Assembly: GCF_032062135.1 (NCBI RefSeq) | Contig: NC_092866.1 | Coordinates: 29,742,874 to 29,806,873 of the forward strand | Length of the DNA stretch: 64,000 nucleotides | Direction: 5' to 3' | From: Pyxicephalus adspersus | Lineage: Eukaryota; Chordata; Amphibia; Anura; Pyxicephalidae | Shown here: piece after piece, positions 1 through 38,236 of the stretch | Position numbering within the stretch: position 1 is the first letter of the stretch | Layout: the number at the start of each line of letters is the position of its first letter | Made by a program: the position numbers and the translations under genes | Notes under the pieces: model-generated | What the model saw: only the letters and a program-made list of their open reading frames with translations | Databases searched by the model: none | Told to the model about the DNA's origin: nothing

Positions 1-179
1 GCCTTAATTGGCAGATTCGCGCCCCCTATTGCTCATTATTATCAAGCCAGGAATCCGGCTGGCAGTGAGGAGGCGAGTGTACGAGCGCACTCGACTCCGG
101 ACCGCGGGAAACCGCGCTCGCTGGTCGTGCGTATTTTCGCGCTTCCAGCGAGCGCGGATTTTATTGATGAATCAGGGCC
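1..179. mobile_element. GC-rich MITE, right-hand part, cut by window start
   Basis: This is the right-hand part of the short inverted-repeat element found complete at 8452-8790. The two copies share the tract around ATCCGGCTGGCAGTGAGG, the palindromic GC-rich stretch near CGCTTCCAGCGAGCGCGG, and the terminal TTGATGAATCAGGG. The copy lies in the same orientation as the complete one. Its left end is outside the window, so its own target-site duplication cannot be checked. Confidence 0.75.
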
Positions 180-4510: not shown

Positions 4511-4514
4511 TTGA

Positions 4515-7527: not shown

Positions 7528-7692
7528 CTTACTTGCTATGCGCATGTGGGCAGTAGTGACCCTGGACGTGCCTGCTCCCAAGTTTTATCAGTTTCTCCTA
7601 TCACGCTGGCCAATCAGGAATTATTGCCTCCTAATCATCCCTGGTATTTAGCTAGCTCAGACACAGCCTGGCACACATATTGTGTCTGATCA

Positions 7693-9689: not shown

Positions 9690-10065
9690 TTATTGAAAAT
9701 TTTTCTTTAAAACAAGGGTACAAAAATAGAGAAAACAAACAATAAAACAGTATAACAGTGAACAAAACCTAAAATAAATACCTGAGTATAACAGAGGTGG
9801 TACAACAATACAATTAGAGGCCTAGGAAGGGCTGGGGAATAACCAGCTCCGACCTTCTTTGAGGTTTACATTAGTTACATTAAACAAATAAAGAACCTCT
9901 AGTTATCCAGATTACCGAGTATACTAAACTCTTGTATATTCTCCATATAGTATATGTCAGGTCTCAAATAAATCAGTTTCAGTAAAATTGACAATTAAAA
10001 TTAACATATATGGGGCGTGGCTTGCCGCGGCTTTTTCTTCTGCACGGGCACCTCACTGCACGCAA

Positions 10066-11479
10066 GATGGGCAGAGCCATGAAATTCAAGGGGGGAAGCC
10101 TCCCCCCACCACAGCACGTCAACCTTCCTCTTCCCAGCCCTCGATTAGGGCTTTTTTTGGTGACTCTCCCGTGGCTCAACAGCCATCTAAGATGGCCCCG
10201 GCTCCATCTTCTCCCCCACACACATGACATGCAGCGGGATCTGAGGCACAGCACAGAGAGCATACAGTAGCTCCACACTCCAACACAGGCTTCCAGTGCC
10301 AGGAACGGAGGATCTGGAAGCAAGAGACAATATAGGGGTGAGTCCTTCTTCCTCTTCAGGGGATTCATCCCCACCAGGAAAATGCCATACTGGGGGGCTT
10401 TCCTACTCTCCTGGAGGTCCTTATACCTCCATGGATGACATCATACCAGTAGCATTCAGACCTGAGGCTGCCACTTCTTCTAGGGAGGGGATGACCCAGA
10501 GCACTCACAGACCACATGATTCAGGTCTCCCCAGGATTAGCAAGGAGGACTTCCCTCCTCTGGGCCCCTCATCACAAGCATATGGCTCTCCCTCAGCATA
10601 GCCTAATACTGCAACCCAGGGCTTTGCAGACCCCTCTAGGCTCCGCAAATAGACTGTGAGACTGTGCTAACAAATGCTGGCATAGACCCCCTGTGGCAGC
10701 AATATTTTCAAATGCTGCCCACCAAAGCGGACTTTCAGCAATTGATAGCAGGTGTACAAGCTACCTTCCGATCTGAAATTGGGGTTCTACGTACTGATCT
10801 ACAATCCTTGGCTGGGAGAGTGGAGGTTTTAGATGAGAATTTATAGCAGGCCAAGGGTGATATTGAAACTCTTACCCAAAATCCCGGGGCTATCACTTGA
10901 AAATCAGGGACCTTTATCGCCACCTGGAAGATATGGATAATAAGGGCCGCAGGAACAATATCAGAGTCCGTGGTCTACCTAAGGCTACCCAGAATTCAGA
11001 TTTGAAGCCAGTGTTGCAAGCTATTTTCAACTGCCTTTTGGGACGCCCTTCGTCACAAAATGTTGGCATTACCATGGCTTATCGGGCCTCGAGGCAACCC
11101 GCCTCGACCACAAGATAATCTTTGCCACCTTGCAGATGCAGAGTTGAAAGATGAGATTATGGCTGCAGCATGGAATATGCGTAATTTGGAATTTGATGGA
11201 GCTCCTCTACAGCTTTTTCAGGAACTCTCCTGGCACCCCTTACGGCAACGGCACTTGCTGCAACCGCTTCTGACTACACTGCGAGATCATCACATTCCCT
11301 ACAGTTGGGGATTTCCTTTTAGCTTGACAGCATGCAACAAAGGGATAACCACTGTTCTGCGATACCTAGAAGACCTTTCTACCTTTTGCCGGGGCTTGGG
11401 AATTGCTTTGCCTAAGCTCCCAGGGTGGGTACCTAAGGACCCTTTACCCCCTTCGCCCCCACCTTGGCAGGAGATTTAG
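10066..11479 (+). pseudogene. L1 ORF1 (RNA-binding protein), plus-strand copy
   Basis: ORF1 proteins of L1 elements are trimeric nucleic-acid chaperones that coat the element RNA. The ATG at 10066 opens MGRAMKFKGG; after a frameshift in a C-run, IRAFFGDSPVAQQPSKMAPA follows. A coiled-coil-like stretch (LRTDLQSLAGRVEVLDENL) precedes the diagnostic RRM start RRNNIRVRGLPKA (about 10950-10985). The C-terminal domain gives LADAELKDEIMAAAWNMRNL and IPYSWGFPFSLTA. Stops and at least three frameshifts break it. The host L1 encodes the same domains at 28006-29277 and 38114-38236. Confidence 0.88.
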
Positions 11480-12486
11480 GCACAGGATGCGATATTCTCC
11501 TCCGTCCCCGGTCCCCAGGGACAGCGGACAACCCTGTTGTGACACAGTATCTTTATCCTTTTAAGTACTCACTATGTTCATGCTGTTTGTCCCAGGGATT
11601 ATTGTCATTTTTGCCATATTTTGAAACTGCTGTTTTCATGCTGTTTGTCTAGGAAATACTGCGGTTTCACCATTCTGTTTACATAATGTTTAATGTCTTG
11701 CCTCTTCTTGTCTTACTCTGTTAGAGGTTGCCGCTGAGAATTTTCCTTTTTTCATTGCCCGCAACTATTATCCCTATCTTGCCTAGATAGGCCGCACTTT
11801 GTATTGGACATCCCTTATTTTGGGGATCCCATGTATCTATATCAGATATCTCAGGGATTATTGACATTTTCTATCATGCTATTATTTTACCTAGAGATAT
11901 GTCTGGCTAACAGTGAAATGTGCTAAAATTTCAGTTGTTACTCTGATTGCATTAAGATCTTGATCTTGCATATATCTGCTGAGGCATATGGTATTACTTT
12001 TAAGCATGTGTTCTTGCCCCACGATTCCTTGGGGGGTCCCACAATGGGCCTGGTTTTACTAGGCCTGGTTTTACTTGAGGCTTTTCTGCTGTTTGACCGC
12101 CGGTGCCGGTCGACTTGGTTAATTATGTTATCTCAGTTACTTGACGGTTGGTCCGGGGACTGTTGGGTCTTCGATCCCCTTGGGAATGTTGGTACACCCA
12201 CCAGGTATAGTTGTTCCCTAGTAGTCCTTAGGGACTCTTGGGGACCGGTGGGCACACTGCCCCAAAGGGTACTTGTGCACTATTTCACGCTGCTATTCTG
12301 GATGCAGCTGAGAAGTGTGGATGTTGTGTCATAATTTTAACCACATTGTACTTTAATGGCTACTAAAATCTTTTCCCTTATTGTTAAGGGGCTGAATTCT
12401 AACTCTAAGAGAAAACTGGTGCTCAGGGAATTTAAACGCCATTCGGCGGAGGATATTTGTCTGCAGGAGACACATCTAGATAATGC

Positions 12487-12721
12487 AAGTACTTGACTGC
12501 TGCAAGACATAGCTCGGTCAACTTGCCCCAAACTAAATCCCCTCAATCTTTAAACTTCACCCCCCCCCCCCCCCCGAAACATTACCCACCCCACCTATAC
12601 ACATTAAACACACCAACGTTGCTTAAATAGCCCGCAGGCCTATTATCAAACAAATATTTAAACATAACATATTAAATAACATATTAATCACAAATAACAA
12701 CAATATATAAATTATTAATTA

Positions 12722-12765
<44 letters not shown>

Positions 12766-13387
12766 ACCATTACAAACATGTAAATTATTTTAACTGAACA
12801 AATAAAATATATATATAACAAATATAACCAATATAAACAACAACAAATAACCTTGCAGTAAAACTCTTTATCATTTTATCATTTCCTAGTTACAGGTCCT
12901 CTGAGGGTCCACCACTTCTAAAACCTTGGGGTCTGCACCTTATCAACGAAATACACCCAGCTCGGGAACACCATGACCCTTACTCGTGCAGACCCCCACC
13001 AACCAATTTACCACACCGGAAACTCCATACCTTAGATGGGTCCCCCCAACATAAATATCAACAAAAACAACACACTCCCCCTGAGGACCTCAACCGCCAC
13101 CACACCCTATACCTTCATATCGCCCGAAACCAAAAACAAAAATGGGGAGGGAGGATGGGAAAGCTTTACCCTTCTTGCTGTCCCTCGTGAAAAAGGACTC
13201 TTTTGCCTCTTCCTGACCTTTTTATCTCCTATTGACCCCTCCTCTCATCTCTTCCCTGCGTCTCTTCCCTCCCCCCTTCTTCTTTCCTCTCACTCTCGCA
13301 CGTGCCACTTCTTAATAATTAACCCTCTGCTGTCTCCCCCCTGTCTGCACAGTCATGCTGGCCTACCACTATACTCCTTTCTCTCGT
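12487..13387. mobile_element. Unclassified 901-bp insertion in L1 endonuclease
   Basis: The endonuclease frame is interrupted after GATAATGC and resumes at TCCAGGCCTCCC. Removing 12487-13387 plus one ATGC (present at 12483-12486 and 13388-13391) rejoins the frame as DNAPGLPFNF, which aligns to the host L1. The insert therefore has a 4-bp target-site duplication ATGC, or 5 bp with one mismatch. Its plus strand is poor in G and rich in A and C in the first 600 bases, with a C-run at 12560-12575, and becomes pyrimidine-rich near the end. No terminal inverted repeat, LTR ends or coding region was recognised. Confidence 0.75.
12725..12761. repeat. (TA)n microsatellite
   Basis: A pure alternating TA tract of about 37 bp lies inside the unclassified insertion. 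Confidence 0.97.
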
Positions 13388-16300
13388 ATGCTCCAGGCCT
13401 CCCTTTTAATTTTGTTTCCAAACACTACCCGCATGCCTATATGGCTAACTCTCCTTCCAGGAAGAGAGCAGGGGTGGCTATTTTGATTAAAGATTCCTTT
13501 ACTTTAATTTAAGATAACTTTACGTTAAATTGCTCTGTTATTGACCCAGAAGGCCGATTTCTAATACTACATTGTACATTGCAGGGTATACCATTGACTA
13601 TGTGCAATATCTTTGCTCCAAATGTGGGACAGCTGCCGTTCCTTTCCAAAACATTTGCCCTCCTGGAAGAGTTTGCTCATACTTACCTGATAGTTGGGGG
13701 TGATTTTAATGCGACTTACTAATAATGCGACCCCTATGCAGGACAGATTGTCTCCTTTCACATCCCCCTCGCCAGCTTCTATTTTACAACAATCCAAGGC
13801 CTTCCAGCAGCTTATCAGACACTACCAGTTATTTGATGGCTGGAGAATTCAGAATCCCACAAGCTGGCAGTTCAATTTCTACTCTCCGCCACATCACACC
13901 CATACCCGTATTGACTACATTTTTATTAACCTACCGCTACTGCAGAACAGCGTCTCTGCCGACATACACCCTATTACATGGTCGGATCATGCCCCGATCA
14001 CCCTAGATGTCCTTTTCGCCCCTTCTAAAGTTAGAGTTTGCCATTGGAGACTGAATGACTTTCTCGTTAAAAATGTAGATACCAAATCGGTCCTCACTAT
14101 GGTTATACAAAATTACTTTACTGAAAATTAAGGCTCAGTGGTGCATACCTACACTCTTTGGGAGGCCCACAAAGCGGTTGTTGGAGGTCAGTGTGTGGCC
14201 TTGAGCTCTCACTTAAAACAGAACTCCAATTTGCAACGTTCCTTGACTGAGCAAGAGTTACGCTCTGCAGAAGAGAAGCCCAATGACAGGCCATCGACGG
14301 GTTTCCTGCGGAAAGTGACCTTCCTCCGCTCTAAATTGAGGGCTTTGGAGTTGAGGAAGGTCAGCTGGATGATGCAATGTACCCGCCAACTTTACTACTA
14401 AAAGGGCAACAAGGCAGACACGGTATTAGCAGGTAAATTGAGAGACACCCAGGTTAATTCCTCTCCTATGGTCATTAAAGATGATGAAGGGATAATTAGA
14501 TACGACCCCTCCCATATAGTTTTTCGTTTTGAAAACTACTATACTCAATTGTATCAGGTGGTACACCAGGCGCAGAATACCTTAGGGAGTAGCCTGCAGA
14601 AGAAAATAGACTCCTGTCTAGTGGAACTGGAGCTCCCTCAGCTGACGGAGGAGCACCTTGAACAAATTAATCGCCCCATTACAGAGGAAGAAATCTCAAA
14701 GGTCATTTCTCATCTTCCCTCTAATAAAGCCCCTGGCCCAGATGGCTTATCCTACCTATACTACAAAACATTTTTGCCGGATTTACTTTTGCACATGGAA
14801 GATTAGTTTATTGATTTTCTATGGGGCAAACCTATACCACCTTCTATGTCCAGCTCCGACATCATGGTTATTCCCAAACCTGGTAAGGATCCGATGGATT
14901 GTACTAACTACAGGCCTATAGCATTACTTAACTCTGATCTCAAAATCCACACCACGATACTGGCAAAGTGTTTTCCACACTTGCTAAAAAAATTTTTCAG
15001 GATTTTTTTGTTCAGGCAATTTAGTCTCTTTATAGAAGTCCTACAGCCTCTGTAAAATTGCCTCATGCCTCTTCTAAGCAATTTTCTATTAAAAATGGGA
15101 TGCGACAGGGTTGTCCCTTGCCCCTCCTCCTTTTTTCCCTGTGTATCAAGCCTTTAGCCCAAAAATAAGGGCTAACCCTGATATCCAGGGTGTCAAGGTG
15201 AAGGGATCTTCCTATAAGATTTTACTATATGTGGATGATGTGCTCCTAACGTTAACACAACCCACTATTACTGTCCTGAATCTGTGGTCTGAACTCCTTT
15301 TCTTTGGTGAAATCTTGGGTTACAAAGTGAATTAAAAAACGGAGGCTTTACCCTTACATATTCCGGTTTTGCAGCTCTCAGCCTTACAGGATAAGTACTC
15401 TTATGTGGCGTGAGCACTCTATTAGCTATTTAGGTACTCAAATCACTGTTACATATAATCAGTTATATTCCTGTAATTTTCCCCAATTGTTTCAGGAGAT
15501 TTATAACTACCTAAAGAAATGGAAAGTACATCCATTATCAATCCTGGGACATATAGCGTCTGTAAAAATGATGCTTCTACCTAAGCTTTTATATTTATTT
15601 GAGACTCTCCCAGTATCTCCTCTCTAGTTTTGGTATTGACAACCATTATCCACAACCCACTACTGCCCGATAGTCTTACCAGAGATAGTCTTACCATTTG
15701 GCAGCCCTGGAGAGAAAGGGGGCTATTTTATCTTAGGCATATTCTGCACCCTGTGGAGAAGAGGTTGCTTTCCTTCTCAGAACTTCAGACTAAATTTGAC
15801 CTCCCACAAACTTCCTTTTATGTGTATTTGCAGATCAGAAATTATGTCTGTTCCCTTACTCAGACGTCCAGATTTACAGAGGTTACTTCATTTGAAAGAA
15901 TATGTATGGATGGTCCCTATGCTAAAGGCCTTATTTCCTCAATATACCGTCTCCTTCACATATCTATACAAAAGACCTCTGGCACATTTGCATATATGAG
16001 TACATGGGAATCTATCCTAGGCCGTACACTGGATAGTGATGAGTGGTGGGATATTTGGGAAGCAGCACATAAAAGTTCAATCTGTACCTTATACAAAGAA
16101 AATTTATACAAAATAATTTTTGTTGTTTCCCTCTGTGGACCCTATTTGCTGGCGATGGGGGACCCAGAGGGGTGCCCTGGAACATATATTTTGGTATTGT
16201 ACCATTATTCAAATTTATTGGGACCGTGTCCACAAATTGCTTCAGGATGTGACCCAACAACAGCTCCACTTAATCATTTATTAGGGCCCTTTATTGCCCT

Positions 16301-19300
16301 TTACAGGTCTCCCTAAACTTTCCAGTAAACTTGCTACCCATATTTTAGTAGCGGCTCGCACCCTGATCTCAGTTAGATGGAAATCCAATCTCCCTCCTTC
16401 TGTGGAGGACCTATATACTTGAATTCAAGATGTTCGTCTGATGGAATACCTTACAGCCCTTCTTTAAAACAAAGTGGACAAATTTGAACTGATTTGGGAG
16501 CCCTGCGACACTTACTATTACCAATTGCAGGATTAGGGAGTGGCTTTTCTCCCCTTTTCTTTATCTCCTGTTGTTGTTATAATGTGTCTGTTTTTTATTT
16601 TAGTTGTGATGTGTTCTGTGGTTACTGTATTTATGCTTGTTTCCAGTACTACCATATGGGATCTTGCTACTTATTCTGGATTCCACATACTTTGAAAGTA
16701 GCTTTTGCTACCAATGGACATGGACATGTACTTTAACTGGACTATCTTTGTTTTTACTACTTGTCCTGCTCTATGTATATTGATCTCATACCTGTTTTGC
16801 TATGTTTGTTTGTTTCTTGTTGTTCTTGTTTAAAAACTTCAATAAAAATTCAGTTTAAAAAAACAAAATTAACAAATATTGAAACCATAGGAGTTGACCC
16901 AAGAAAAAAGGTAAAGGGGAGGAGGGAGAAAGAGTTTATCTACAGTATTCCTGAGTAGAGCTGTAAGGTACTCCATGAGACGTACCTTCTGAATCTGTGT
17001 ATATAGATCCTCCATGTAGGGGGGCAGAGTATCTTTCCAGTTGGAAGGAATTAGTGTACGTGTTGCCACTAGTATATGGGACACCAATTTGCGGGTGAAT
17101 CTTGGTAAAACTGTAAGTGGTTGACCCAGATTGGTGAGAGGGTTCAGAGAAACCTGTCGTTGGGTCATGTCTGTAGGTAATGTATTAACTTGAGATCAGC
17201 ACCCCTGAATAGGAGGAAAGAACCAGAGAATATGCTCTAAGGTGCCCCGGTGGATCCCACACCGCCAACACATGGGATCAACACTAGGGAACAACGAATG
17301 GAGCAAATCTGGTGTATGATACCATCTGAATATAATTTTTTTTATAAAGTGAACAGATAGAGCTCTTATGTGCCCCTCCCTGATCTCTGACCACTCTTCT
17401 GGATCCAAAGTCTGGCCCAACACCTCCTCCCACCTATACATATATCCAAATTTGTTTGAGGCTTCATGAATTGAGTCACATAGGAAGCGATATATAGTGG
17501 AGACAACACCCCTAGTGTATGGGCCCTCAGCACAAAATCTCTCAAAGGGATTCAATTTCTGGAACCTGGCCAAGGGCTGGAGGGATAAAACAAAATGCCT
17601 AATTTGTAAATATGCATATTGGATGTTTGAGGCAAATCTACTTTGTCACAAAGTTCAGTAAAGGAGAGTAATCTCCCCACTACTGGGTGTAGTAAATGTC
17701 TAATTTGAAAAAAGGCCTCTTTCTCTCCTGGGTCCCGACGTGACCCCTGTAAGACTATCTGGTATCTGTGGGGTGAGGATAATTGATGTTAACCTCAAAG
17801 CCTACGACATAAGGCTATATCTGCTTTTACAAGTCCTCCACAGGTTTCTTGTAAACACCATAGGTGCTGGTAGGTCGTGGTCAGCCAAAGCAAAACATTG
17901 GGGTGCACAGGGGCAATCCAATGCTCCTCCAGGTCCCTACAAACACTGGAGGGATTAACTGCCCAGCTCTCGGGGAGTGCATACAATACATTTAGCTAGC
18001 CTTTGCCTTTTCTAGGCCAAAATGAAATTCCAAAAATCTACTTGAACATTCTTTATGGCTTGAGGCAGAACTCGAACAGGCAATGTCTCAAACAAATAAA
18101 GCAGTTTGGGGAGGAGCATCATTTTTACTAATGCTATCCTACCAAGAAGTGACAAGGGATGGCTTTTCCATTTACTTAAGAGCGACTTTAGCTCAAGAAA
18201 CAACAGCAGGAAATTATGGGAGTATAACTGAATATACGATGAGGTAATCTGTACCCCCAGGTAATGAAGGGAGTGTTCCTTCCAGAGAAAGGAAGTAAGA
18301 GCCTGGTAAAGGCCAAGAGTTGCGAGGGGAGTACGTAAAGGGGCAAGGTCTCCGTTTTGGATGAGTTAACTTTGAAATACGATACTTCACCATACTTCTT
18401 CCCACAAGTTTGGGAGGAAAGTGATTGGTTGAGTCAAGGTTAAAAGAACGTCATCAGCATACAATGATATTTTGTATGGTTTCCCCTTAATTGGCACACT
18501 GTGAATATTCAGGTTAGACCTAATATAAGCTGCTAGGGGCTCAATACATAGGACAAAAAGCAGGGGTGACAGGGGGCAACCCTGCTGTGTACCATTCCTT
18601 ATAGGGAACACTGTAGATGATGCATGTGGCAATTCGATCAAGGCCGATGGAGATTTGTACAAGAATTCAACCTCCCTGATAAAGGGCCCAGAAAAACCCA
18701 TTCTGTGCAGAGCAGAAAGCATAAATGGCCAACTAAGACAGTTTGCCTATCCTGCATCTAAACTAAGCACTAGTGACAGAGCTTTCCACCTATTGACAAT
18801 ATCAATAACATTAACAACCCTTCTAGTATTATCGCTTGCATGACTGTGTGGTGGTATGAAGCCTGTCTGCTCACCATGGATGAGAAAGGAGAGGAATTTG
18901 GATAGCCCCGAAGCCAGAATTTTCATGAAAATTTTCAAATCTGAAATCAAGGGTGTTATGGGCCTGTAACTTGAGCAATCCATTGGATCCTTACCTGGCT
19001 TTGGCGCCACTGTAATGTGGGAAGTCAACATAGACAGGGGGTATGGTTATTGTTCATAAAGTCATTGAATAAAGCCAACAGATGCGGTAAAAGTTCTGGC
19101 AAAAATGTTTTATAGTATAAGTATGGTAAACTGTCCGGGCCAGGAGCCTTAGAGGAAATTTCATAAACAAAATTTCCTCCCCTGTAATTAGATTATTAAG
19201 TTGCCCTAAATATTGCAGTTTGATCTTGGGAAGGATCGCACTCTATAGGTATGAATCTATTTTCGGCTGTAGTAACTAGTGTAGTTTTTCAAATTCGGGT

Positions 19301-19564
19301 CGTCCTAATCTTCGACCTGAATATGGCCGTTCGAATTCGGGTCACCCCCGACCCGAATTTTGTTGAATTCGATGCCCGGAATTTGGCCCTCCCACAATGC
19401 CTAGGGACCTCCCCTTATAATGCCTAGGGCCCCCCAATAACAGCAGGGAAGTGAAAAAAAGTGCTTTACTTAGACTGTGTCACACTCACACTATTAGTCA
19501 GATTGTTGAATTGTACTGTATTGGTGCAGTCCTGAAAGCTACTGTACTCAGATGTGGAGTGTTT

Positions 19565-19612
19565 CACAGATAGATAGACAGATAGATAGATAGATAGACA
19601 GTCAGTCAGTGT
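19565..19612. repeat. (GATA/GACA)n microsatellite
   Basis: This imperfect tetranucleotide tract of GATA and GACA units lies in the left part of the hAT element, before the transposase. Confidence 0.9.
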
Positions 19613-19919
19613 GTTACATACATGCAGCCAGAGGCAGGGTACTCTCCCTGACTTCGTGCACAGTATCACACTTGTACTGAGAGACAGTCACACAGACGCA
19701 GTGTATATTGCAGTATATTATTTGTATACTGTGCTGCATATAACAAGCGTCACCACTGAAGGAAAGTGCTGCATACAACAGACACACAGTGCACTTGCAT
19801 TTTTGGAGTCAAAAAAAAAAATCCACTTACTGTACAAATTTACACTTTGTGAAGCATACTAGCTCCAAAGTATTTTGCAGGGTGTCAAGCCACACAAAAA
19901 ATTTGTACAATGTCTGGCC

Positions 19920-22900
19920 AAAGAGGGGGCAGCTTTGCCAGGGGTGGCAACCAAAGCAGTATGAGTTTGTAGCTGCAGACCCGAGAACAAGAACCGCTGC
20001 TATTAGTGATGAGGGTCCATTATTACCACTCCATGAACAAGAGGTAGTGAAGTACATGAGCCATCCTGGGTCAAGTGATTGTACCCCCTCTTCATCCCAG
20101 TCACAGGCCTCACAGGTGTCCCAAACAGTCCATTATACACCTGTTACTCCTAGTTCATTGGCTAGAAAGTCTTATGTACAGCAGTATGTAGAAGAGTCCC
20201 ATCAATGGGTTGGAGAGGCGGAACTACAAGCATTCCTTCAAAATGCTCATTTGTTTCAGTCATCTGACGAAGAGAGTCAGTTCACAGGCTTTCCCCCCAC
20301 TAACTTTTCAACCAAACACTCTGAGCCAGACAAGCCACTTCAAACTGGCTCCAAAAGGCAGCTGCTTCCTTTAGGCACATACAGGGAAACTGTCTCTTCT
20401 GATGATGATGTCCTTGATCTGGCATGGGGCGAACAAGGAGATCATCATAGGCAGGAAGGAGAAGAGGAGGAGGAGGAGGGGGATGAAGAAGAGGCGAAGG
20501 AGGTTGCAGAGCGCCTTCAAAGAGGAGAGGGAGGAAAAGAGTAAAAGCTGCCCACACTCTGCAGTCTTCACGTACCAGTGAGGCAAGTCATAGTCGTCCA
20601 TCATCAAAAGCTGTCACCAAAGCTATGCCTCAACAACTGCGGAGCACCACCACAAGCACCAGCTCCAGAGCACCTTTCATCCCAGTCGGATGTTCGCCCG
20701 TATGGGCCTTTTTTTTTTATGTCCATAGGGATGACAACACTATGGTCATCTCCAAACTGTGTGCTCAACACTTGAAATGAGGCAAAAACCCAAACTTGGA
20801 ACAAGTTGCATGAGTACACATTTAAAAAGGAACTACCTGGTAACCTGGCGGGAACACCTGGTCAAAGCACAGAGCTCTGTGCAACCACCTCCGCCCAAGA
20901 AGCAAGCTCAAACTGCTAGATCTTCCTCCGCTGCCTTTCCTCCTTCTGCATTACCTTTTTAAGGCTCCCCCAGCAGTGAGCAGGAGCTCCAACGCAGATC
21001 GGCTGTTGTTTGTCGCATTGCTAGCAGTCAAGACCAGGCATCATTGCCATCCCCCACACCTTCTACCCCATCACACAATCTTTCTGTGGTTAGCATTAGC
21101 AGCATCCAACCTTCCATCCCCCAGGTGCTGTAGCGCAAGAGAAAATATGACCCAAATGAATTGCACAGCTGATTGCATTAGAGCTCCTACCTTAATGGCT
21201 GGTGGACTCCAATGCGTTCTGTTACGCATTCCTCTGCACAAACCCATAGTACGTTATGCCCAGGCAACAGTATTTTGCAGAAAAATGTGTTCCTGCTTTG
21301 CATGAACACGTGCAGAGCAATGTGTCCATGGCCCTGCAGCACTCAGTTTCTGGCAAGGTGCGCCTGACAACCGACAGTTGGTTGAGCAAGCGTGGAATGG
21401 GAAGATATATTTCCTATACAGCTTACTGGGTAACTTTGGTGGCAGCAAGGGAAGATGCATCTGCAGCAAAGTCTGCATACCTACCTCCGCCCAGAGCACC
21501 CAGATCGCCATGCAATCTCCTCCTCGACCTCCACTTCCAGCACCTCCCATTCATCAGCATCTGTTCACCGCCAGCCAACAACCTGCAGTTTGCTATTTTG
21601 GTGCACAATTCAGACGTTGCCACGCAGTCCTGAGGTTGTGAAGCCTGGGTTCCCTCAGCCACAGGGGCGCAGCCATTCTCCAGCCAGGCAAGGTCCTGTG
21701 TCACAACGAGGCCAATCTGCTGGCAGCCCTGCGTTGTGGAAAACTCCCACACGTACCTTGCCTGGCTCACGTCATGAACCTGATAGTACAGCGGTTCCTT
21801 AGGAATTACCCAGGCCTCCAGTTACTGTTGCTGAAGGCCAGAAAGTTGTCAGCGCATTTCCGCTGGTCGTACACAGCCAGTGCCAGATTGGTGGATTTAC
21901 AGCGAAATCTCAATCTGCCAGTGCACCGGATATTTTGTGACGTTGGAATTCCACCTTTTACATGCTGCAGCGGCTGGCTGAACAACAGAAAGCGGTGGTG
22001 GATTACGTGGCAGAGTCTGTTAGTTTCAGATGTATGCCTACACTACCTTTCTTCAGCCCTGCGGAGTGACTGCAAATTGAGAACTTGTGCACTGTATTTT
22101 TTACATTTGAAGATGCGACCAGGATGATCAGCAGGAATCAGGCCTGTGTCAGTGACACCATCCCCATCATATGCCAAATGGAAAATATGATGGTGAATCT
22201 CGGACACGACACAGAGCGGACGCTGCATCAAGAGATGATGTTTCAAACATCATCTCGGACATGCGTACCTACTAGGCATAGTGCACCCCAAATTCAGGAA
22301 GATGAAGAGGTGGAAGAGGATGAGGAGGACATTGCAGGCATGGGAGAAGGGAAAGAAGGGGAAGAGGAGGATATTGAGGGTACATGGCATCCATCCACCC
22401 AAACACAGAGTGGCATGTTCTGTTGATGGCAATACCATGCATAGGAGGAGGACGACGACTCTGTGGTGCTGTTCGACCCACAGGAGTGTGGGTCCAGAAT
22501 TACCTCAGCTGTGGGTAGTTTGAGCCACATGACAGCCTTCATGCAGGAGTGCATAGCCAAAGATCCGCGCATACAACACATAAAAACAAAGACTGACGAC
22601 TATTGGATTGCTACATTACTGGATCCACGTTACAAGCCTAGGATACAACAACTCATCTTGCCTCAATACAGGGAACCTAAAATGCAACACTACCAAGAAG
22701 TGCTTGTAAGGGACTTGTGCTCCGCCTTTCCGGCTGCCAGCAGCAGCAGGGATCCCTATGGCAGTTCCACCAGCCATGGGAGCCAAACAACTACCATAAT
22801 CCTGTTTAATAATAATAATAATAATAAAAGGCATAGGTGGCAGCAGCAGTAGAGGTCGTCTAAGCCAAACTATGCAGGCTTTTTGTCAGCAGAAGAAAGC

Positions 22901-23245: not shown

Positions 23246-23254
23246 TAGTCGTCA

Positions 23255-24480: not shown

Positions 24481-24482
24481 TT

Positions 24483-27699: not shown

Positions 27700-27718
27700 G
27701 CAACCCCCCCCCCCCCCC
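27700..27718. repeat. Poly(C) run
   Basis: About 18 consecutive C residues in the inter-ORF region of the host L1. Confidence 0.95.
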
Positions 27719-28005
27719 AAGGACTGCGATGCAACCTGAGCACAAAGTAACAAACTCAAATTACCATTTAAGACAACACAGTAGCACTTAGCCGTACATA
27801 ACCGTAATGCAATTATAAAACAGCATATAGTAAAGGTAAGGAAGCGTTCTAAATCAAAATGGCACAAGATCAAAGAAAAAACATGCAGGATTAAGTTCCA
27901 TAGTAAGGACTAGCCAGTCAACTAGTAAGGTATTAGTGTCATAATCCAGAAGAGCATTCAAGTGGAGATTGGGATTCCCGGATTCTGCGCTTGGACCGCT
28001 TCTAA

Positions 28006-29277
28006 GATGCCACTGCCTGCCATGGGGAAGAATGTGGATGCGTAGGATCCTCAGGTTCCCAGCCCGGGTGTTTGAGGCGGTCTATCCCAAGATCTCTGCA
28101 AAAAGATAAAAGGGCCTCTGGATACTGGAGCGTGGCCGTTTTCCTATCCCTGCGAGCAGCAAGACTAAATGGAAACCCCCATCTGTTTTGGATACGATTG
28201 TCCCTGAGGACAGTCAATAGCAGCTGCAGTAGGCAGCACTGCTGTAGAGTATGACACGATAGGTCCTGATAAAGCTGAAGTGGAGCGCCATCAAAGTCAA
28301 GATTACGCATGTTCCTGGCAGTAGCCATAATTTCATCTTTCAGATCAGCATCTTCCAATTGGCAGAGAACATCAGGCGGCCTGGATGCTGTGCCAGGTTG
28401 GAGGTTAGAAAAAGGGTATCCCAGTACCCAACTAAAGAAGGCTTGTAGAACCAACATTAAATCAGCATCCTGAGTTGCTTTAGGAGACCCCGGACTCTGA
28501 TATTATTCCTGCGACTTTTATTGTCCAGGTACTCAATAAGACGGTAAAGGTCCCTGAACTTTTGAGTACTTTCCATAGCTTTGTGTGTGAGAACCTCAAT
28601 GTCCCCTTTGGCTTGCTGAACATTATCATCCAGGTCATCCACCCTGTCTGCCGGGGACTGTATATCAGTGCGCAAAGCCCCAATTTCTGAGCGTCAAGTT
28701 GCCTGGACTTCAGCTACCAATTTCGGAAAGTCCTCTTTTAGTGGGCAAAAGCTGTAGGGACTGTTGCCATGGGAGACTGGTATTATCATCCATAGAAGGG
28801 TGCCCTTTAGTGCAGTGTCTGGAAGAGTCCAAGGTCCCCAAGTTCATGGGAGTAGGTTCCCCTATTATTTCAGCATCGGGATACAGAGGGTCCTGCTGGA
28901 GAGCGGACCACTGTGGCATAAAGGGGAGGGCCTGGAGTAGTAATCCCTTGGGACCCCTGAGCTGGAGAGCTGAAGAAGAAAATCCCCTAACTAAAGGCTG
29001 CAGGGATCCCCTCTCCCAGGGAAGCATTCAGTGGTTCTGGTGATCGTGCTAAGCCCCTATAGGGAGAAGCTGCAGGGGAGGAGGATCCCTCTGAAGAAGC
29101 CGCAGGAATCACTGGACCCTTAGCTGGTGAACCCAAAGATTCTGGAGACCTAGGATGCTGTGAAGGGGTAGGTAGTGGATCTCTCTGCCGACTGAGGGGA
29201 GTATCCGGCTGCTCATAGGGGGTTGATGCTTCGAGGGCCCGCTCCCATTCTCCTCGCTGCTATGTGTGTGGAACCGA
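28006..29277 (-). pseudogene. Host L1 ORF1, main part
   Basis: Read on the minus strand this encodes the coiled-coil and RRM region (DIQSPADRVDDLDDNVQQ, then KSRRNNIRVRGL at about 28485-28520) and the C-terminal domain (LEDADLKDEIMATARNMRNL, WGFPFSLAARRD). It is co-linear with ORF1 of the plus-strand L1 (10066-11479). Its N-terminal part lies about 8.8 kb away at 38114-38236, separated by the inverted-repeat element. Frameshifts and stops are present, so it is non-functional. Confidence 0.87.
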
Positions 29278-30335
29278 TGTCCTAGACAAAAAAACTACCC
29301 ATGAAAAATAACTACCAGGGGGTGTATACCAATGGGCGTGTACAATGACTTCTTCATTAGGAAAGTTTCACTTTGACTGATTGCTTATGAATGCTACATG
29401 TCATGTACTGCAGCCTTACATCTCTCCCAGTACAAACCTCCCATTTCTCCTGAACAGTATGTCATAACCACATCTCCCCACCTTAACAACTTTCAAAATA
29501 ATTATAAAAACTAGTGAGTGTTGAACATTAGGGTTGCTGTTTCAAAAGTAAGTGTGTCTAGAAGCCCGAAATTAAACATACAAATAATGGACCCCCTGGG
29601 GCCACATACATAGCAAGAAGGTGCGAACCCCAAATTTATACCGACCTGTCACAAAACTAGAAAAGTCATACTACACTATCCTGTGACCTTCCATACGTTA
29701 AACCCCAGGTTCTCTGGAACAAGGAAATGTACAAAACCAAAAAGGTGCACGTGGGGGACACCTGTGGCTAGCACCCCCTAAAATTTCTTCATTAGGCCCT
29801 AATCAGAACATAAAAAAACTCTTCCCAAAAAAAAAAAAAATACCCTGTTACACATTGGTGAAGGCTTCCAGCACCTGAACCTTAGTTTCTCTGGAACGAG
29901 GGGAGGTATAGCTGAACAACAATATAGGTGTAAGTGGGGGACACCTGTGGCTAACACCCCCTAAAATTTCATCATTAGGCCATCGTCAGAACATAAAAAA
30001 ACTCTGCCCATAAAAAAAACTACACTGTTACACATTGGTGGAGGCTTCTAGCACCTGAACCCCAGTTTCTCTGCAACGAGAGATGCATGTGAACAAAATT
30101 AGAGATGCATGTGGGGGACACCTGTGGCTAACACCTCCTAAAAATTTTTTTATTAGGCCATCGTCAGAACCACTCTGCCCATCAAAAAAACTACCGTTAC
30201 AGATTAGTAGAGGCTTCAAGCACCTGAACCCCAATTTGTCTGGAACGGGTGGATACAGGTGAACAAAAACATAGGTGCAAGTGGGGGACACCTGTGGCTA
30301 ACACCCCCTAAAAATTTCATGGTTAGGGCATCTTC
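29278..30335. repeat. Left arm of inverted-repeat element, with four tandem subunits
   Basis: The arm starts TGTCCTAG. Its inner half has four tandem units whose marker GGGGGACACCTGTGGCTA recurs at about 29753, 29935, 30113 and 30283, so the period shrinks from about 182 to 170 bp. The outer half (29278-29740) aligns in inverted orientation to 32513-32050 and 38113-38089. The unit also carries CACCTGAACCCCAGTTTCTC and AACTACNNTGTTACACATT. Confidence 0.88.
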
Positions 30336-30703
30336 AGAAGAAAAATTAACCATAACCATTTTATTATGCTTCCATGTATGCAAACTTTTGAGTAGACATT
30401 CAATCTGGAGGAGTAGCTGGTGTGATCCACTCATTTCTTGTGTGATATTGTGGAAAATAATAATTCCTGAAGAAGAAGACATCATTTCAGTACGGCATCA
30501 AAAACTTTAAACTGAAATTAAAGGAGAGTCAAAGGGGAATTTTTCCTTCATCGTTTGTTTTTTAAATAATTGGTGGTTTATGTATTTTACAAAACAATTA
30601 GCTTTCACATGAGAATTTATTCTTAAAATATACTTTTAATTATAATAAATATTTTCATGACGCTTGTGATTATTTTTTCTTTCTATTCTATAACACATAG
30701 CAA

Positions 30704-31578
30704 TCTATATATATAATTTTGGATGTAAGTGTGTATGTATGTATGTATCTTCCACCATCACTCGAAAACGCATGGAGACATTTCAACCAAACTTGCTATA
30801 CATATGACTGAGACTCATGTGAGTGCACCAGTCATCTTTGTGTGACTGTGGGGGGACATTGGAGTGTCAACTCCTCTGTACAGAGACTGATGGGTCTAGC
30901 TCAGTGTTTAATTGTACAGCACTATGGTATATGTCAGAACAATATAAATCTATATATATAAAATTGGATGTATGTATGTATGTGTATATGTGTGTATGTG
31001 TGTATTTTCCACCATCACTCGAAAAGGCATGGAGACATTCCAACCAAACTTGCTTTACATATGACTGAGACTCATGTGAGTGCACCAGTCATATTTGTAC
31101 AGCGCTGTGCTCTATGTCAGAGCTTTTTTTGTATGTATGTATGTATGTATTTATGTATGTGTGTATGTCATCACTAGGAAACGCATGGAGAAACTTCAAC
31201 CAAACTTGCTATGTTCCACCATCACTCGGAAACGCATCAACACATTTCAACCAAACTTGCTAGACATATGACTCAGACTCATGTAAGTGCATCGCTGATC
31301 TTTGTACAGCGCTGTGGTATATGTCAGAGGTATATTTGCATGTATGTATGTATGTGTGTATGTGTGTATGTATGTATTGCTCAGTGACAGTGTGCCTTTT
31401 GCTTATATTTTTACCTACTTTTTTTACACGTAATGTAATTGGCCGAGTGCAATCAAAGGCAAAAAAATTAAACAACACTGTAGGCAAGAAAATCACTATA
31501 GCTTGTTTTGATTCCTTTTCCTGTATAATTTAGGATTGCAATAAATAAATACCCAGACAACGCCTGGTTATTAGTTAG
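30704..31578 (+). mobile_element. Helitron sequences, two 5' ends in tandem
   Basis: Two copies of a Helitron-like 5' end, TCTATATATATAA followed by TTGGATGTA, start at 30704 and 30949, each preceded by A. The 3' end at 31578 shows a short hairpin (CCAG and CTGG around ACAACGC, near 31552-31566), followed by TTAG and then T. This fits insertion between A and T with a CTRR-like end. The interior repeats the phrase AAACGCATGGAGACATTTCA and tracts of (GTAT)n. No Rep/helicase is encoded, so these are non-autonomous. The second copy appears to have inserted into, or replaced, the rest of the first. Confidence 0.75.
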
Positions 31579-31789
31579 TATTTTAAATACCAGCCACCTA
31601 TGGCTGGGTGTATGGACTGTTTCCGCAGCATTTAAACTGATTTTTTTAAAAGTCCATCTTTGAAATTCTCAATGTCATGGCGTTTCCTTGTTTTCCCATA
31701 CTTTCAATAACTTATAAAACATTGTATGTGTATGTGTAATACGTTAAAGGCGAAAAAATTTATTTTTTCAGCTTCAAAACTCTTAAAAA

Positions 31790-32513
31790 AGCGACAGGTG
31801 TCCCCCACTTGCACCTCTAATTTTGTTCACCTGTATCCCCGTTCTAGAAAAATTGGGGTTCAGGTATTAGAAGCCTTCACTAATGTGTAACAGTAGTTTT
31901 TTTATAGGCAGAGTTTTTGTTCTGACCATGGCCTAATGATTAAATTTTAGGGGGTGTTAGCCACAGGTGTCCCCCACTTGCACCTATAATTTTGTTCACC
32001 TGTATCCCCCCGTTCCAGAGAAACGGGTTGGTTTGGGAAGTGGACAGGGTAGTGTAGTATGACATTTTTAGTTTTGTGACAGGTAGGTATATTGTTAGGA
32101 GTTGCACCTCCTTAATATGTAAGTTGCCCCGGGGGTCCATAATTTGTATGGTAAATTTCAGGCTTCTAGGCACACTTACTTTTTAAAAAGCAAACCTAAT
32201 GTTTATTTTTCACTAGTTTTTATAATAATGACCCCCATATTTTAAAAAGTTATTAAAGGTGGGGGGATGAAATTTGGAATACTGCTAGCTATGAGGGTCC
32301 CCTGTGTACCCTGTGTACTTCAAGTCGTTATGACATATTGTTCAGGAGAAATGGAGGTTTGTACTGGGAGAGATGTAGGGCTGCAGTGGGAGAGATGTAA
32401 GTCTGCAGTACATGACATGCAGCATTCATAAACAAACAGCGAAAGTGAAACTTTTCTAACGATGAAGTCATTGTACATGCCCATTGGTATATGCCCTCTG
32501 GTAGTTATTTTTC
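31790..32513. repeat. Right arm of inverted-repeat element (outer tip at 38089-38113)
   Basis: This is the inverted counterpart of the left arm. It carries two copies of the subunit marker as ACAGGTGTCCCCCAC at about 31794 and 31963, versus four in the left arm. The arm is broken at 32513 by an L1 and its last 25 bases follow at 38089-38113. Confidence 0.88.
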
Positions 32514-33509
32514 TGTTTCAATTTCTTTGTTAATTTTCATTTTTATCATACAAATAAACAAGCCAGCATAAAATGTGTCATTCAATATTCAATTTCCAAC
32601 AAATCATAATTCAACAATATAAACCCTATACAACACAATCTTCAAGTTTGATTATATATGTCTATCCCAACCTTTAGTATTTCTCAGTTCTCGATTTCTA
32701 TCTTTTATTAAGAATATTATCTCAATACAAAGACTGCTCCCCCCCCCCATATATTCTTAAGTGACGAAATTATCTACTGTAACCCTTTACCTATTAGAAT
32801 ACTCAAAACAAACATGTGATTAATTTATCAATAAGAGGAGAAAAAGTATTAATACCTTTCGCTCCATTACAACAAAATTATATAAACCCTACTTCTATTT
32901 GTGACATGTGAATCCTTATCCAAATCTTATTTAAAATTGTGTATTTTATATAATATCCCCCTGTGATATATAGGGTGAGAGGAACTAGCCTTCCATACTT
33001 CATCTTTTGACCATTGCTCATTCTCTATTGTTTCAATCTCCATTACTCCCTTAATCTTAACAAAACAATAGGGGTTCACCTTTCTTAACCAATTCATCTA
33101 CTAATAACACTGTGTATTTTTATTTTGTTTAATTATAATTTACTTTTCCTACTTTACCTTTACCACTCAGTTAAGCGTGACATATATACCCAAATACTCT
33201 TAATTTTTTACAAACAATATCGACAACCACTAAAACACAAAGACCAAGGAAAGGTGGGGAACAGGAGGACAGGGGGCAGGCCAGCTAACACCCCCACATA
33301 TGGAAAGGGAACATATGTTACAGCCTACATAGTTAATAATGTGACTTTATGGTCAATATTGACCGATCCAAGCCGTTATTCATATAATGCTCAATCCATG
33401 GTGACCATATTTTTTAAATTTAGGAACCGAGGCAGTCAATATAGCTCTCATCGTTTCATTCACCAAAAACCAGGACATTTTATTTTTAACTTGTTGAACA
33501 TTGGGGCTT

Positions 33510-36500
33510 TTAGACCACCATGCTTTGGCCAAAACTATTAGCTGAAGTGAACAGATATGTTATCAATTTAAATTGAACTTTAGTACAAAACAATGGTTTC
33601 AAACACAAAAATGCCTCTGCCGTTTTTTTAGGAAATGCGTGTCCCATCAAAGTATAAGCTATTTGATATACCCTCGTCCAAAATTTTCTTATTTTAGGAC
33701 ACTCCCACCATATATGATAGAGAGTTTTTAGTTTATTACATCCTCTAAAACATTTACCCTCACAGGTCAGCTGGAATTTAGTAAGCCTAGATGGAACCAT
33801 ATGCTATCTTAACATCAATTTATAGTATAGTTAAAGTATTATACAGAGCTGATAAAACTCCTTTTACCTTTACGTTTTGTACACACAGTTTCTCAAACCA
33901 CGTCATATTATTAATTCCAACGGTTAATCTCAACCTAGTTTGTAAAAAATGCCTGATCTGGAGATACCTAAAGAGTTCCTCCGGTGGAGCTTCATATTTT
34001 TCTCCAATCTCACTAAAAGATAATATCTCTGCCATATTAATAAAATTACAAATTCTATATAAGTCCTTTTCTACCCACCATGAAAAACGCCTCGGTTCCT
34101 CCAGACCAGGAGGAAATAACGGGTTCCCAATTATAGAACTTACTGGGCTATGGCCAGACATAAGGCCCCCATATATAGGAAATTTAGCAATATTCTTTTG
34201 GGCATGATACTGTAACAGGAGTAGCTTGAGCAGCCTTATAGAATGAACTCAAATGCAGCACCAATAGGCCGCCCAGGTTCCTAGATCGATGTAAGGTATG
34301 TCTAGGAACTCATGGGTGCTTTGCCCCCCAAATATATTCTAACATTTTCCTTTTTTATTACCTGGTTAGGCATAGCTAATGGAAGAACTCTCATGGGATA
34401 TAGGAACTTTGTAACTTTGGTAACCAGGACATCTTTATAGAAGCTATGCGGCCCAACCATGAGATTTGATAACTTTTCCTTGTTTCTAATAAACCAAACA
34501 GATGTTTCACCAGATCAGAGATATTGACACTATACAAGAGCTCATATGATGAAGAAATATATATACCCAGGTAGCTAATTCTTTTTAACTCCCACTGAAA
34601 GGGAAAAGAATCTTTAGGCAGTTTTACCACTTCTGTTGATAAATATATACTAAGAGCCTTACATTTTGATTTATCTACCTGCAGCCCCGAGAAGGCCTGA
34701 ATGCCTTCCATTATCTTCATCAGGTTGGGCAACCAAACCAACCTGATTGGAGAATATCATTCGCAAAAAGACAGAGTTTATGTTGTTCCCCATTTATCTC
34801 TATACCCTGAATGTCAACATTATTTTGGATAGCTACTGCCAGTGCAAAAAGTAATAGCGACAGTGGGCAACCCTGCCTGGTACCCCTGCCTATAGAAAAA
34901 CGTTCAGAACAGTAACCCATATATTGTATAAAAGCCTTAGGGGAGTCATACAATGAGGAAACCCATTTACAAAAGTTCTCTCCAATGCCCCATTTGTTTA
35001 ATAATGATATAAGATATGGCGAAAACACGGAGTCAAACCCTTTACTTATATCCAAACTCAGTAGAAAAGCTGATGTCTTATTTTGTTTAGCTTGTTGAAT
35101 TAAATGCAATATCCTCCATGTACTATCTCCCGCTTGTTGTCTGAGTATAAAGCCCATTTGGTCAGCCGACACTAGGTCACCCAAACTATCTTCCAATCGG
35201 GACGACAATATCTTTGCATACAGATTAAGAAGAGAAATCAGCCTATAATTAGACCAATTCATCGCATCAGTAGAGGGTTTTGGTAGCATACAGATGGCTG
35301 CTTCCAACATACTCGAGTGAAGGGCTTCCCCTTTCAAAATCCCAATAAACGTCTCCACCAAATAAGGTCCCAGTATTTGCTTCTATTTAAAATATACTGC
35401 CATGAACCCATCAGGTCCTGGTCTCTTATTGGGTTTAGGATCTCCAATAGCTTTAATCACCTCCAACAAGGTGATAGGGGCTTCCATAATTTCAATTCTA
35501 TTAGCGGTAATTTTTGGAAGATTTATAGACTGAAAGAATGTTTCCATAGCTCTCTTATCAAAAGAATAAGGGGTATGGTACAGTCAGTCATTCTCAGCTT
35601 TTCATATTTAGATTCTAACTCCGTTACTTTTGCCCTACGTTCTTTTTTAATCTGTGTGGCTATCTGTATGAGTCGTCCCCTTACCACCGTCTTATGCGCG
35701 GCCCATAGCACAACCGGTGATGTCGAAAGTTGTTGATTTAAAGAGAAATACTCAACCAAAATCCCTTGTACTTTTTGGTCCACCTCAGGGTTACTGAGCA
35801 AAGAGTCATTAAGTGACCATCTAAACATATCAGGCATAGGAAAAAGAGAAGAAAATGTAGCCCAAACTGCGTCATGGTCTGACCATGAGATCGCCAAAAT
35901 ATCACAGGACAAAACCAAGGGCAATGCTTTTTGATGTAATAAAATTTTGGTCTATACAGGTAAATAGTTGATGGGGATGGGAAAAATATGTATACTCCAT
36001 TTCTTTAGGATGTAATTCCCTCCACATATCTGACAACATTTCAGATTTCACCAAATCCAGCAACTTATTTGATAATATATTATCCCCAGATACAGAAGTA
36101 TTCATAGATATTCATATCCATACTTGGTATTAGTGGAACATTGGTGACACCACACCTCATCAAATAACCTTCACATTTTTAAGCACCAAAATCATCAGCT
36201 GTTCAAAAAAAAGCAGCTGATTCTCATTAGGAGCATAGTAAGACACCAATGTCACTTTAGCGTCATTTAATGTTCCAACCAATATCAAGTATTGACCATC
36301 TTCATCCACCACCTTTCTATCCAATTGAAATGACACTGTCTTTCTAAAGCCAATAAGCACCCCTCTTCATTTTACTGCTGCATTAGCTTTGAAGACGATT
36401 GGGTAGGCCGCATGAAAATATTTTGGACAGGAGGAGGTAGGAAAAAGTGTCTCCTGTAGGCATATTACATCTGCTTTATGTATATGAAAATAACGAAAGG

Positions 36501-36564
36501 CTTGTGACCTTTTAACTGGGGAATTAAGACCTTGTACATTAAGAGAGAGTATTGAAATTACCAT
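33510..36564 (-). pseudogene. L1 ORF2 of third L1
   Basis: The ATG at 36564 opens MVISILSLNVQGLNSPVKRS, and VICLQETLF follows (endonuclease N-terminus). TLVSYYAPNENQ, MEYTYFSHPHQLFTCIDQNF and SWSDHDAV mark the rest of the endonuclease. The RT shows LPKPSTDAMNWSNYRLISLL, LLSLDISKGFDSVF (motif A), GTRQGCPLSLLLFALA and LCLFANDIL, where the usual A-D-D has become A-N-D, so the catalytic centre is damaged. The C-terminus includes a cysteine-rich segment, CEGKCFRGCNKLKTLYHIWW (about 33700-33760). It is inactive because of stops and the active-site change. Confidence 0.88.
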
Positions 36565-36895
36565 TTCTCTATATTTTCCAAGTAATTCGTATATACCCTT
36601 TTCCTATCACAAACATTTATACAATATGCAGTCTGCCTTACACCGGAAACAAAAGGGAAAAAACTAAGACAGGGGTAACACTGAACAAACAAAACACTAT
36701 ACATTATACATATCATATATACCCAGGGTGTGTGGAGTGGAGACCTGCTCTCACCCGCCTCTTCCCTTTCTGATAATACAAAAATGCAATATAAACTAGA
36801 GAAGACAGAATAAATAACCCCTAAATAAAGCAGGAAGAAAAAAGAAAAAGAGAGGGCACAAATGAATTAAGTATTTAAATATTGCTCTTTGTTTC

Positions 36896-37911
36896 TTAAG
36901 AGCAACTCAAATGTTTAAGTGGATCTGTGACCTTACGCTCCTTAGTCCTCTTTTGCTGATGTATTTCAGGTATTCGTGATGTTGGCGGGTTAGGATTTTC
37001 CACTCGGCCTGATTTCTCATATTGATCACAGGCATAAAGTCCCATTTCCTGAAACTGATTTCTGGCCTCCTCTAACGAAGAGACAGCTTGTAGCTTGCCC
37101 TCATATGTAAATAACAATTTAAAGGGCAAGCCCCATCTTTAGGGGATCTGTTGATTTTGTAGGATCCGAAGGAATGGTTTCATCTCTCTGCGGCGCAATA
37201 TCGTTGCTGGAGCCAAGTCCATAAAAAGTAATTATGACCTTGAAAAGTGAGGGGTTCCTTACTTCTGGCTGCCCTCATTATCGCATCTTTGACATAGGGA
37301 TATTGCAACTTAACCACTATGTTCCTTGGTGAACCATCAGCTTTTGGTTTTACTAATGTGCGATGTACACGGACCAATTCTAGCTTTTCCACTGCTATCT
37401 CTGGACATATATCACAAAAAATGGCAGTCACTGTTGTATTAAGATCAATTATGTTTTCTGGTAAGCCACGTATGCGGAGGTTAGAGCGACGAGCCCTGTT
37501 CTCATAATCCTCCATTTTATGATGTAAAAGCTGTACCTCCTGTTTCAAATACTCAATATCCTCTTCGTGCCCCTCTAGGACAGTGGTAACATCATCTACT
37601 CGCCCCTCAAAGTTGTACTGTACGCTGGCCCAGCTCTCTTAGCTCCCTTGTAAAATGCTCTGTAATTTTCTTAGAAGTACTCTCCAATGCTGTATGTAAC
37701 ATTAACTGAAATTTTTCCAAAAGGCTTTCTGAATCTGAAGGCTGTAACTGAACCACTGGTGTTGAGGGCAGGCTCTGTTTCACTAGAGCACACACTTTTG
37801 TTCTTGACACATGTGAATGTAGGAATCCTCCATCTTGGCCCTCCTGCATGCTGAGGCTGCCTGTGTTAACAAACGCTGCTGCTGGCTCTTACCGTGCGTT
37901 GGCATCTGATT
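36896..37911 (-). pseudogene. L1 ORF1 of third L1
   Basis: The reading runs from about MPTHGKSQQQRLLTQAASAC (37903), through a helical stretch (LLEKFQLMLHTALESTSKKI), to MEDYENRARRSNLRIRGLPE (about 37450-37515), the conserved start of the L1 ORF1 RNA-recognition domain. VRVHRTLVKPKADGSPRNIV and FKLLFTYEGKLQAVSSLEEA belong to the RRM and C-terminal domain. It is interrupted by several stops. It lies upstream of ORF2 in the usual L1 order. Confidence 0.88.
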
Positions 37912-38113
37912 TTCTCCACCTGCAAGCCTCCCTCTATACTTCTCCTCACTCAGGGAGCCTCCCGATGCCAAAACCGCCGCTTGATGTGCCCGTTTGCAGC
38001 CGTGTTTGTCCTGGTGTAGAGTGGAGCAGGCTCAGGATTCTCACATCCGACAGCCTGCTTTACGCATGCGCCCTGGTAGTTATTTTTCATGGCTATTTTT
38101 TTTGCTTAGGACA

Positions 38114-38236
38114 CTGGCACCATCTTTGAGGTCGACGGGGGAGCCGACAGAGGATCCGTGATAAAAGCCCGTATGAAGGGCTGATCCGAAAGGAGTTGCG
38201 ATGTCGAGGTGGGGGGGAGGCCCCCACCATATGCAT
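38114..38236 (-). pseudogene. Host L1 ORF1 N-terminal fragment
   Basis: On the minus strand it reads AYGGGLPPTSTSQLL, then IRAFITDPLSAPPSTSKMVP. This aligns to IRAFFGDSPVAQQPSKMAPA in the plus-strand L1 (about 10145-10205). It is the upstream piece of the ORF1 continued at 29277, so the 8.8-kb block between them is an insertion. The L1 5' end lies somewhere between 38225 and 38390; I could not fix it. Confidence 0.8.

Follow-up and report, generated by a model that had tools for sequence, protein, structure and literature searches.

The window analyzed here is a 64,000-nucleotide stretch of the genome of the frog Pyxicephalus adspersus (contig NC_092866.1 of RefSeq assembly GCF_032062135.1; C9:29742874-29806873) and was compared with that same genome (1.44 Gb in 8082 contigs). 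Four minus-strand blocks in the window are, as judged from alignments to relatives, parts of a single L1 retrotransposon of ~6.1 kb (the host L1). Three later elements landed at separate places in the host L1: a plus-strand L1 (plus L1), a hAT DNA transposon, and an element with long inverted repeats (the inverted-repeat element). This last element later received a third L1 and a Helitron-like sequence, and the plus L1 later received a dispersed repeat of ~0.9 kb (Table 1). The nest is three transposons deep, with the deepest chain running from the host L1 through the inverted-repeat element to the third L1, and it is very probably the product of independent transpositions that piled up in one dead L1.

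Table 1. Elements and target-site duplications of the nested locus, in window coordinates (L009 to L012 and L015 are relatives of the host L1; ORF, open reading frame)
Feature	Position	Strand	Remarks
Host L1 block 1 (5' part)	38114..38228	-	Homology to L010, L011, L012, and L015, all of which also match block 2
Host L1 block 2: ORF1 region, ORF2 start with endonuclease	26009..29277	-	79-87% to L009
Host L1 block 3: ORF2 (reverse transcriptase, 3' part)	16865..19276	-	79-81% to L009, one 59-bp piece 93%
Host L1 block 4: 3' untranslated region and tail	9683..10011	-	81% to L009; begins at block-3 end; 3' end good to tens of bases
Plus-strand L1 in host L1	10012..16864	+	Starts GGGGCGTGGCTTG; A-rich end; delimited by ends and duplication
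Plus L1, left target-site duplication AAAATTAACATATAT	9997..10011		14/15 identical to 16865-16879
Plus L1, right target-site duplication AAAATTAACAAATAT	16865..16879		14/15 identical to left copy
Dispersed repeat (~0.91 kb) in ORF2 of plus L1, third level	12494..13404	+ (as aligned)	Flanks abut within 14 bp in 13 of 27 relative loci
hAT DNA transposon (TAGTGT...ACACTA)	19277..26008	+	Length 6.7 kb; remnant transposase interrupted by stops and frameshifts
hAT, left target-site duplication GTAGTAAC (8 bp)	19269..19276		7/8 identical to right copy
hAT, right target-site duplication GCAGTAAC (8 bp)	26009..26016		7/8 identical to left copy
Inverted-repeat element (TGTCCTA...TAGGACA)	29278..38113		About 3.3 kb without third L1
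Probable 4-bp target-site duplication, left half (CCGA)	29274..29277		One step from CCGG
Probable 4-bp target-site duplication, right half (CTGG; minus strand, CCAG)	38114..38117		One step from CCGG
Helitron-like sequence in core of inverted-repeat element	30704..31578	+	A, then TCTATATA ... hairpin ... TTAG, then T; recognized by ends alone
Third L1 in right arm of inverted-repeat element, third level	32514..38072	-
Third L1, left target-site duplication CTGGTAGTTATTTTTC	32498..32513		16/16 identical
Third L1, right target-site duplication CTGGTAGTTATTTTTC	38073..38088		16/16 identical

Relatives of the host L1 were sampled as 27 loci of 9.9 kb each around matches to a single 789-bp query from block 2, a sample biased towards loci that have block 2, and the four host blocks were aligned to these loci one by one, not as a joined L1. 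The closest of the 27, L009 (on C5), aligned to blocks 2, 3, and 4 and passed from each to the next without a gap: block 2 ended at 3578 and block 3 started at 3583, and block 3 ended at 1059 and block 4 started at 1048. The chain in another relative, L016, spanned summed block coordinates 2 to 6106 and contained no insertion or deletion of >250 bp. Relative L012 reaches further in the 5' direction, so the host L1 is probably short at its 5' end by about 0.1 kb. A reverse transcriptase domain was detected in block 3 (RVT_1, 18390-18746; E = 2.8e-9), and block 2 gave an endonuclease match under the curated cut-off (Exo_endo_phos; E = 0.0022). Pfam searches found no family at 0.001 in 7 of 10 fragments, and a second set of nine fragments, searched at a limit of 1, returned weak matches to unrelated names that we set aside as noise.

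Alignments of empty sites in the relatives support insertions into the host L1. The junction left by each direct insert was scored across the 27 loci with the best pair of block alignments per locus, so that the resulting counts lean to contiguity; with the block ends as cut, the predicted offsets were -9 for an 8-bp duplication by the hAT, -9 for a 15-bp duplication by the plus L1, and -3 for a 4-bp duplication by the inverted-repeat element. A pair was available for the hAT junction in 20 loci, 13 of them exactly at -9, two one base off, and five further off. Target-site duplications of hAT elements are 8 bp long, and the present element resembles its class in the length of its duplication, its TAGTGT...ACACTA ends, and a C-terminal dimerization domain (Dimer_Tnp_hAT, PF05699; E = 2.7e-12, with two stops read as X). 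A genome search returned 1872 candidate places, of which 40 were scored, as for the two other candidate lists given below, and matches longer than 1 kb had 77 to 89% identity. The element differs from hAT DNA transposons in its long internal tandem and inverted arrays at 23255-25540. These arrays comprise ~76-bp direct and inverted repeats (23255-24483), followed by ~92- to 98-bp repeats and a ~645-bp duplication (24480-25540).

The plus L1 is flanked by the pattern AAAATTAACA[T/A]ATAT at 9997-10011 and 16865-16879. It is similar to the host relatives at the DNA level, and a GGC(G/A)TGGCTT motif like its start occurs upstream in L012 and L015; the host and plus L1s belong to diverged lineages, with about 61% identity over 1846 aligned columns. 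The closest pieces in the genome were 85 to 91% identical to the plus L1 and most others 65 to 81% (gapped identity). Internal deletions are probable near 14968 and 15615, and an 80-amino-acid piece of its reverse transcriptase had no Pfam match. Both flanks of the ~0.9-kb repeat within it aligned and abutted within 14 bp in 13 of the 27 relative loci; in the remaining loci, one flank was absent or the gap was wider (about 0.6 kb in L024). The genome search with this repeat gave 428 candidate places, with a best match among the 40 scored of 92% over 909 bp. Besides the repeat's own match, 16 matches were nearly full length, 13 of which started at query positions 22-25 and 15 of which ended at 935-937, although the right edge is less certain because the query itself ended at 941. 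At three genomic places, 4.6 to 5.0 kb separates its left part from its right part; longer versions thus seem to exist, and the repeat may be an internally deleted form. Its ends gave no target duplication beyond a possible 3-bp CTT.

The third L1 gave Pfam matches to RVT_1 (E = 1.5e-17) and, just over the cut-off, to Transposase_22 (E = 1.4e-4). Its top match in the PDB was an RNA-directed DNA polymerase (4.8e-36), followed by four LINE-1 ORF2 entries (1.1e-35 to 2e-35) and then, at about 1e-10 or weaker, by R2-type proteins and others like them. Copies elsewhere in the genome had 93 to 95% identity over 0.85 to 1.2 kb (up to 95% over 852 bp). L1 insertions typically carry target-site duplications of roughly 7 to 20 bp. 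Likeness to the L1 clade is seen in the L1-type reverse transcriptase, the ORF1 RNA-binding domain of the third L1, the A-rich 3' end of the plus L1, and duplications of 15 to 16 bp. Helitrons have TC...CTRR ends and a 3' hairpin and insert between A and T. The Helitron-like sequence starts with TC after an A, carries the hairpin ACCCAGACAACGCCTGGT, and ends before a T with TTAG, one base from CTAG; it also contains internal repeats and, near 30948, a further 5'-like end.

Relative ages were estimated from small alignments of three copies per element, picked as near ones (for the host L1, three of the 27 loci: L009, L013, and L023), as the smallest private Kimura two-parameter (K2P) branch on shared columns, with 2000 bootstraps. 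The private branch was longest for the host L1 (0.079; 95% bootstrap interval, 0.060 to 0.096; 1291 columns), followed by the plus L1 (0.038; 0.014 to 0.064; 335 columns), the hAT (0.027; 0.008 to 0.047; 288 columns), and the third L1 (0.024; 0.006 to 0.043; 295 columns). The ranking was the same with pairwise columns (0.068, 0.042, 0.028, and 0.025, respectively) and without CpG columns (0.053, 0.035, 0.023, and 0.019). Of the bootstraps, 99% gave the host L1 a greater age than the plus L1, and all gave it a greater age than the hAT and the third L1. The plus L1 exceeded the hAT in age in 77% and the third L1 in 83%, and the third L1 exceeded the hAT in 40%. The closest copies of the host L1 had 77% identity over 584 bp and 88% over 148 bp, with 79 to 87% in longer blocks. 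The age rank of the inverted-repeat element rests on nesting and on identity figures (closest copies, 80 to 82% over about 400 bp, 87% over 230 bp, and 89% over 160 bp). Wherever it was measured, the order of private divergence is the order that nesting predicts. An earlier, sequence-only reading of the locus had proposed that divergence be compared with nesting order. It had placed the host L1 first and had left the three direct inserts without an order among themselves, and both points are borne out here: at least 99% of bootstraps put the host L1 first, and the plus L1 came before the hAT in only 77%. It had also spoken of a calibrated chronology, which goes too far: the ages are relative, with no absolute rate or dated event behind them.

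The resulting history begins with the host L1, followed by the three direct inserts without a set order, and each second-round insert is younger only than the element that contains it. The 15- to 16-bp duplications and the A-rich 3' end of the plus L1 suggest that the L1s arrived by target-primed reverse transcription, and the 8-bp duplication suggests cut and paste for the hAT. The ends of the Helitron-like sequence are consistent with insertion between A and T. The TGT...ACA ends and probable CCGG-type 4-bp site of the inverted-repeat element suggest that it was inserted by an integrase-like transposase acting in trans. The genome searches showed that the families are dispersed through the genome.

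The arms of the inverted-repeat element run roughly from 29278 to 30345 and from 31790 to 32513 plus 38089 to 38113. A search with 461 bases from its left end gave 1683 candidate places and, among the 40 scored, 49 matches besides its own, of which nine started at query positions 38-39 (window positions 29277-29278), seven started earlier, and the others started further in. In all, 29 rows of end sequence were read: 26 short stretches from other copies, one from L020, and both ends of the element in the window. L052 and L054 failed a crude register test, and the visibly mis-registered L036 and L051 were kept among the 27 that passed. Among the 27 scored ends, 24 began with TGT and 21 with TGTYC, and the fifth terminal base was C in 25 and T or A in one end each. 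The four bases outside the element were CCGG in seven of the 27. The genome holds a large inverted-repeat family with TGTYCTAA ends and CCGG-like sites, including two shorter copies, roughly 0.6 and 0.9 kb long, whose left and right ends were both read. The host-L1 relatives themselves have CCGG at the site of the element in 6 of 14 readable cases (L012, L018, L019, L021, L027, and L031).

The flanks of the inverted-repeat element in the window are probably a decayed CCGG duplication, to judge from the sequences at the ends of its relatives. It could be objected that the element inserted without a target-site duplication, by simple insertion or rearrangement, and that the resemblance to CCGG arose by chance: the plus-strand tetramers CCGA and CTGG share just two of four letters, and, of three further copies retrieved with both flanks, one has no readable left end. 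We regard this as unlikely, given that both flanks are one step from CCGG, that 17 of the 27 scored ends are at most one mismatch from CCGG when about 1.4 would be expected (13/256 each), and that the two remaining fetched copies have CCCC on both sides and CTGG and TCGG, respectively. Length at the empty site adds to the objection. A pair was available in 19 of the 27 loci, 14 of them within 4 bases of contiguity and five further off (one by 356); because nine loci are at +3, not at the predicted -3, and the length differs between relatives, length is no proof of a 4-bp duplication. Ginger1 elements are described, in the portion of PMC2836005 drawn on here, as having 4-bp CCGG or CCGT duplications, TGTNR ends, and inverted repeats of 40 to 270 bp. 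The present element is like Ginger1 in its probable 4-bp CCGG-type target, TGT...ACA ends, and long inverted repeats but unlike it in the fifth base of its family, in arms that exceed the reported range, and in that no transposase was found in this copy. An open stretch of >99 codons was absent from 29277-32514 in this copy, and an autonomous partner in the genome was not sought. The element is therefore probably Ginger1-like and non-autonomous in the way it works; because the fifth base departs from TGTNR, it is not filed as a member of Ginger1. IS481EU was dropped as a candidate, being reported, in the part of the literature drawn on, from parabasalids and with several duplication lengths. 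As a tentative suggestion, and one that we hold at well below even chances, the element may represent a large non-autonomous family mobilized by a Ginger1-related integrase-like transposase, with TGTYC instead of TGTNR ends and strong targeting of CCGG.

As for the locus as a whole, four unrelated L1 fragments lying in order by chance, or an assembly chimera, might be suspected in a region so dense in repeats. This is extremely improbable, as the blocks adjoin in relatives L009 and L016, each junction bears an insertion signature, and the window contains no N bases. A true four-deep nest, with the host L1 itself lying in another transposon or a second insertion lying in the Helitron-like sequence, draws on a plus-strand reverse transcriptase fragment of another long interspersed nuclear element (LINE) just right of the host L1 (about 38550-38930; RVT_1, E = 7.9e-10) and on the two 5'-like ends of the Helitron-like stretch. 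However, six frames of the left flank (8850-9690), inspected by eye, held no matching upstream LINE coding sequence, and the internal 5'-like end is equally compatible with a tandem array, which leaves a fourth level quite improbable. Several observations do weigh against independent insertions into one old L1 as we have ordered them. No convincing target-site duplication was found for the host L1, the only candidates being chance-like matches of 7 to 8 bp. The plus-L1 junction is covered by just 4 of the 27 relatives, with L009 exactly at the offset predicted by the 15-bp duplication and the others at -57, +42, and +92. The nine +3 loci at the inverted-repeat junction belong here as well, as do two properties of the ages: private branches give maximum insertion ages, and the branch of the host is inflated by its having one close relative.

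With these points taken into account, independent transpositions into a single dead L1 remain the reading that we favor, and most of what the sequence-only reading had described stands: the union of the four blocks in one minus-strand L1 (L009 and L016 contradict blocks of different families or blocks that do not adjoin), the positions of the blocks and the limits of the inserts (accurate to a few bases), the target-site duplications of the plus L1, the hAT, and the third L1, and the three direct inserts with a further L1 inside the inverted-repeat element. Its depth of four levels has to be reduced to three, and its inventory missed the ~0.9-kb repeat in the plus L1 and the probable CCGG duplication and gave the inverted-repeat element no class.

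At least one extra stretch of >250 bp compared with the host was present in 13 of the 27 relatives, a count that would miss very large stretches given the 9.9-kb locus size. In four of those 13, the sole extra stretch fell at one shared position (about 1508-1570), where the host itself may differ in length; excluding them leaves 9 of 27. LINEs are frequently interrupted: for human chromosome 2, the part of PMC2672092 drawn on gives 39% of LINEs as nested and 1.66 insertions per kb of LINE. With three direct inserts in an L1 of about 6.1 kb (about 0.5 per kb), the present locus is not exceptional in comparison. Our approach shares its logic with REANNOTATE (PMC2672092), TinT (PMC3014933), and interruption analysis (PMC2517846), as far as the portions of these sources drawn on describe it: fragments are joined by homology, and inner elements are younger than outer ones. 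It differs from them in treating a single locus. The literature drawn on in part also includes PMC10045372. The nest is real and clean but ordinary: it is what independent insertions into old L1 sequence usually leave behind, and by itself it raises no new question. As a worked example in which insertion order and divergence agree independently, it can be used on a small scale to check dating methods within this genome. The only part that may merit closer study on its own is the inverted-repeat family with its CCGG targeting.

Two further observations were made in passing. A direct repeat of about 650 bp (70% identity) links 44456-45068 and 63290-63931 of the window, with a further partial copy at 7539-7665. 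On the minus strand of L031, a stop-to-stop stretch of 313 codons near the L1 relative looks by eye like an olfactory receptor.

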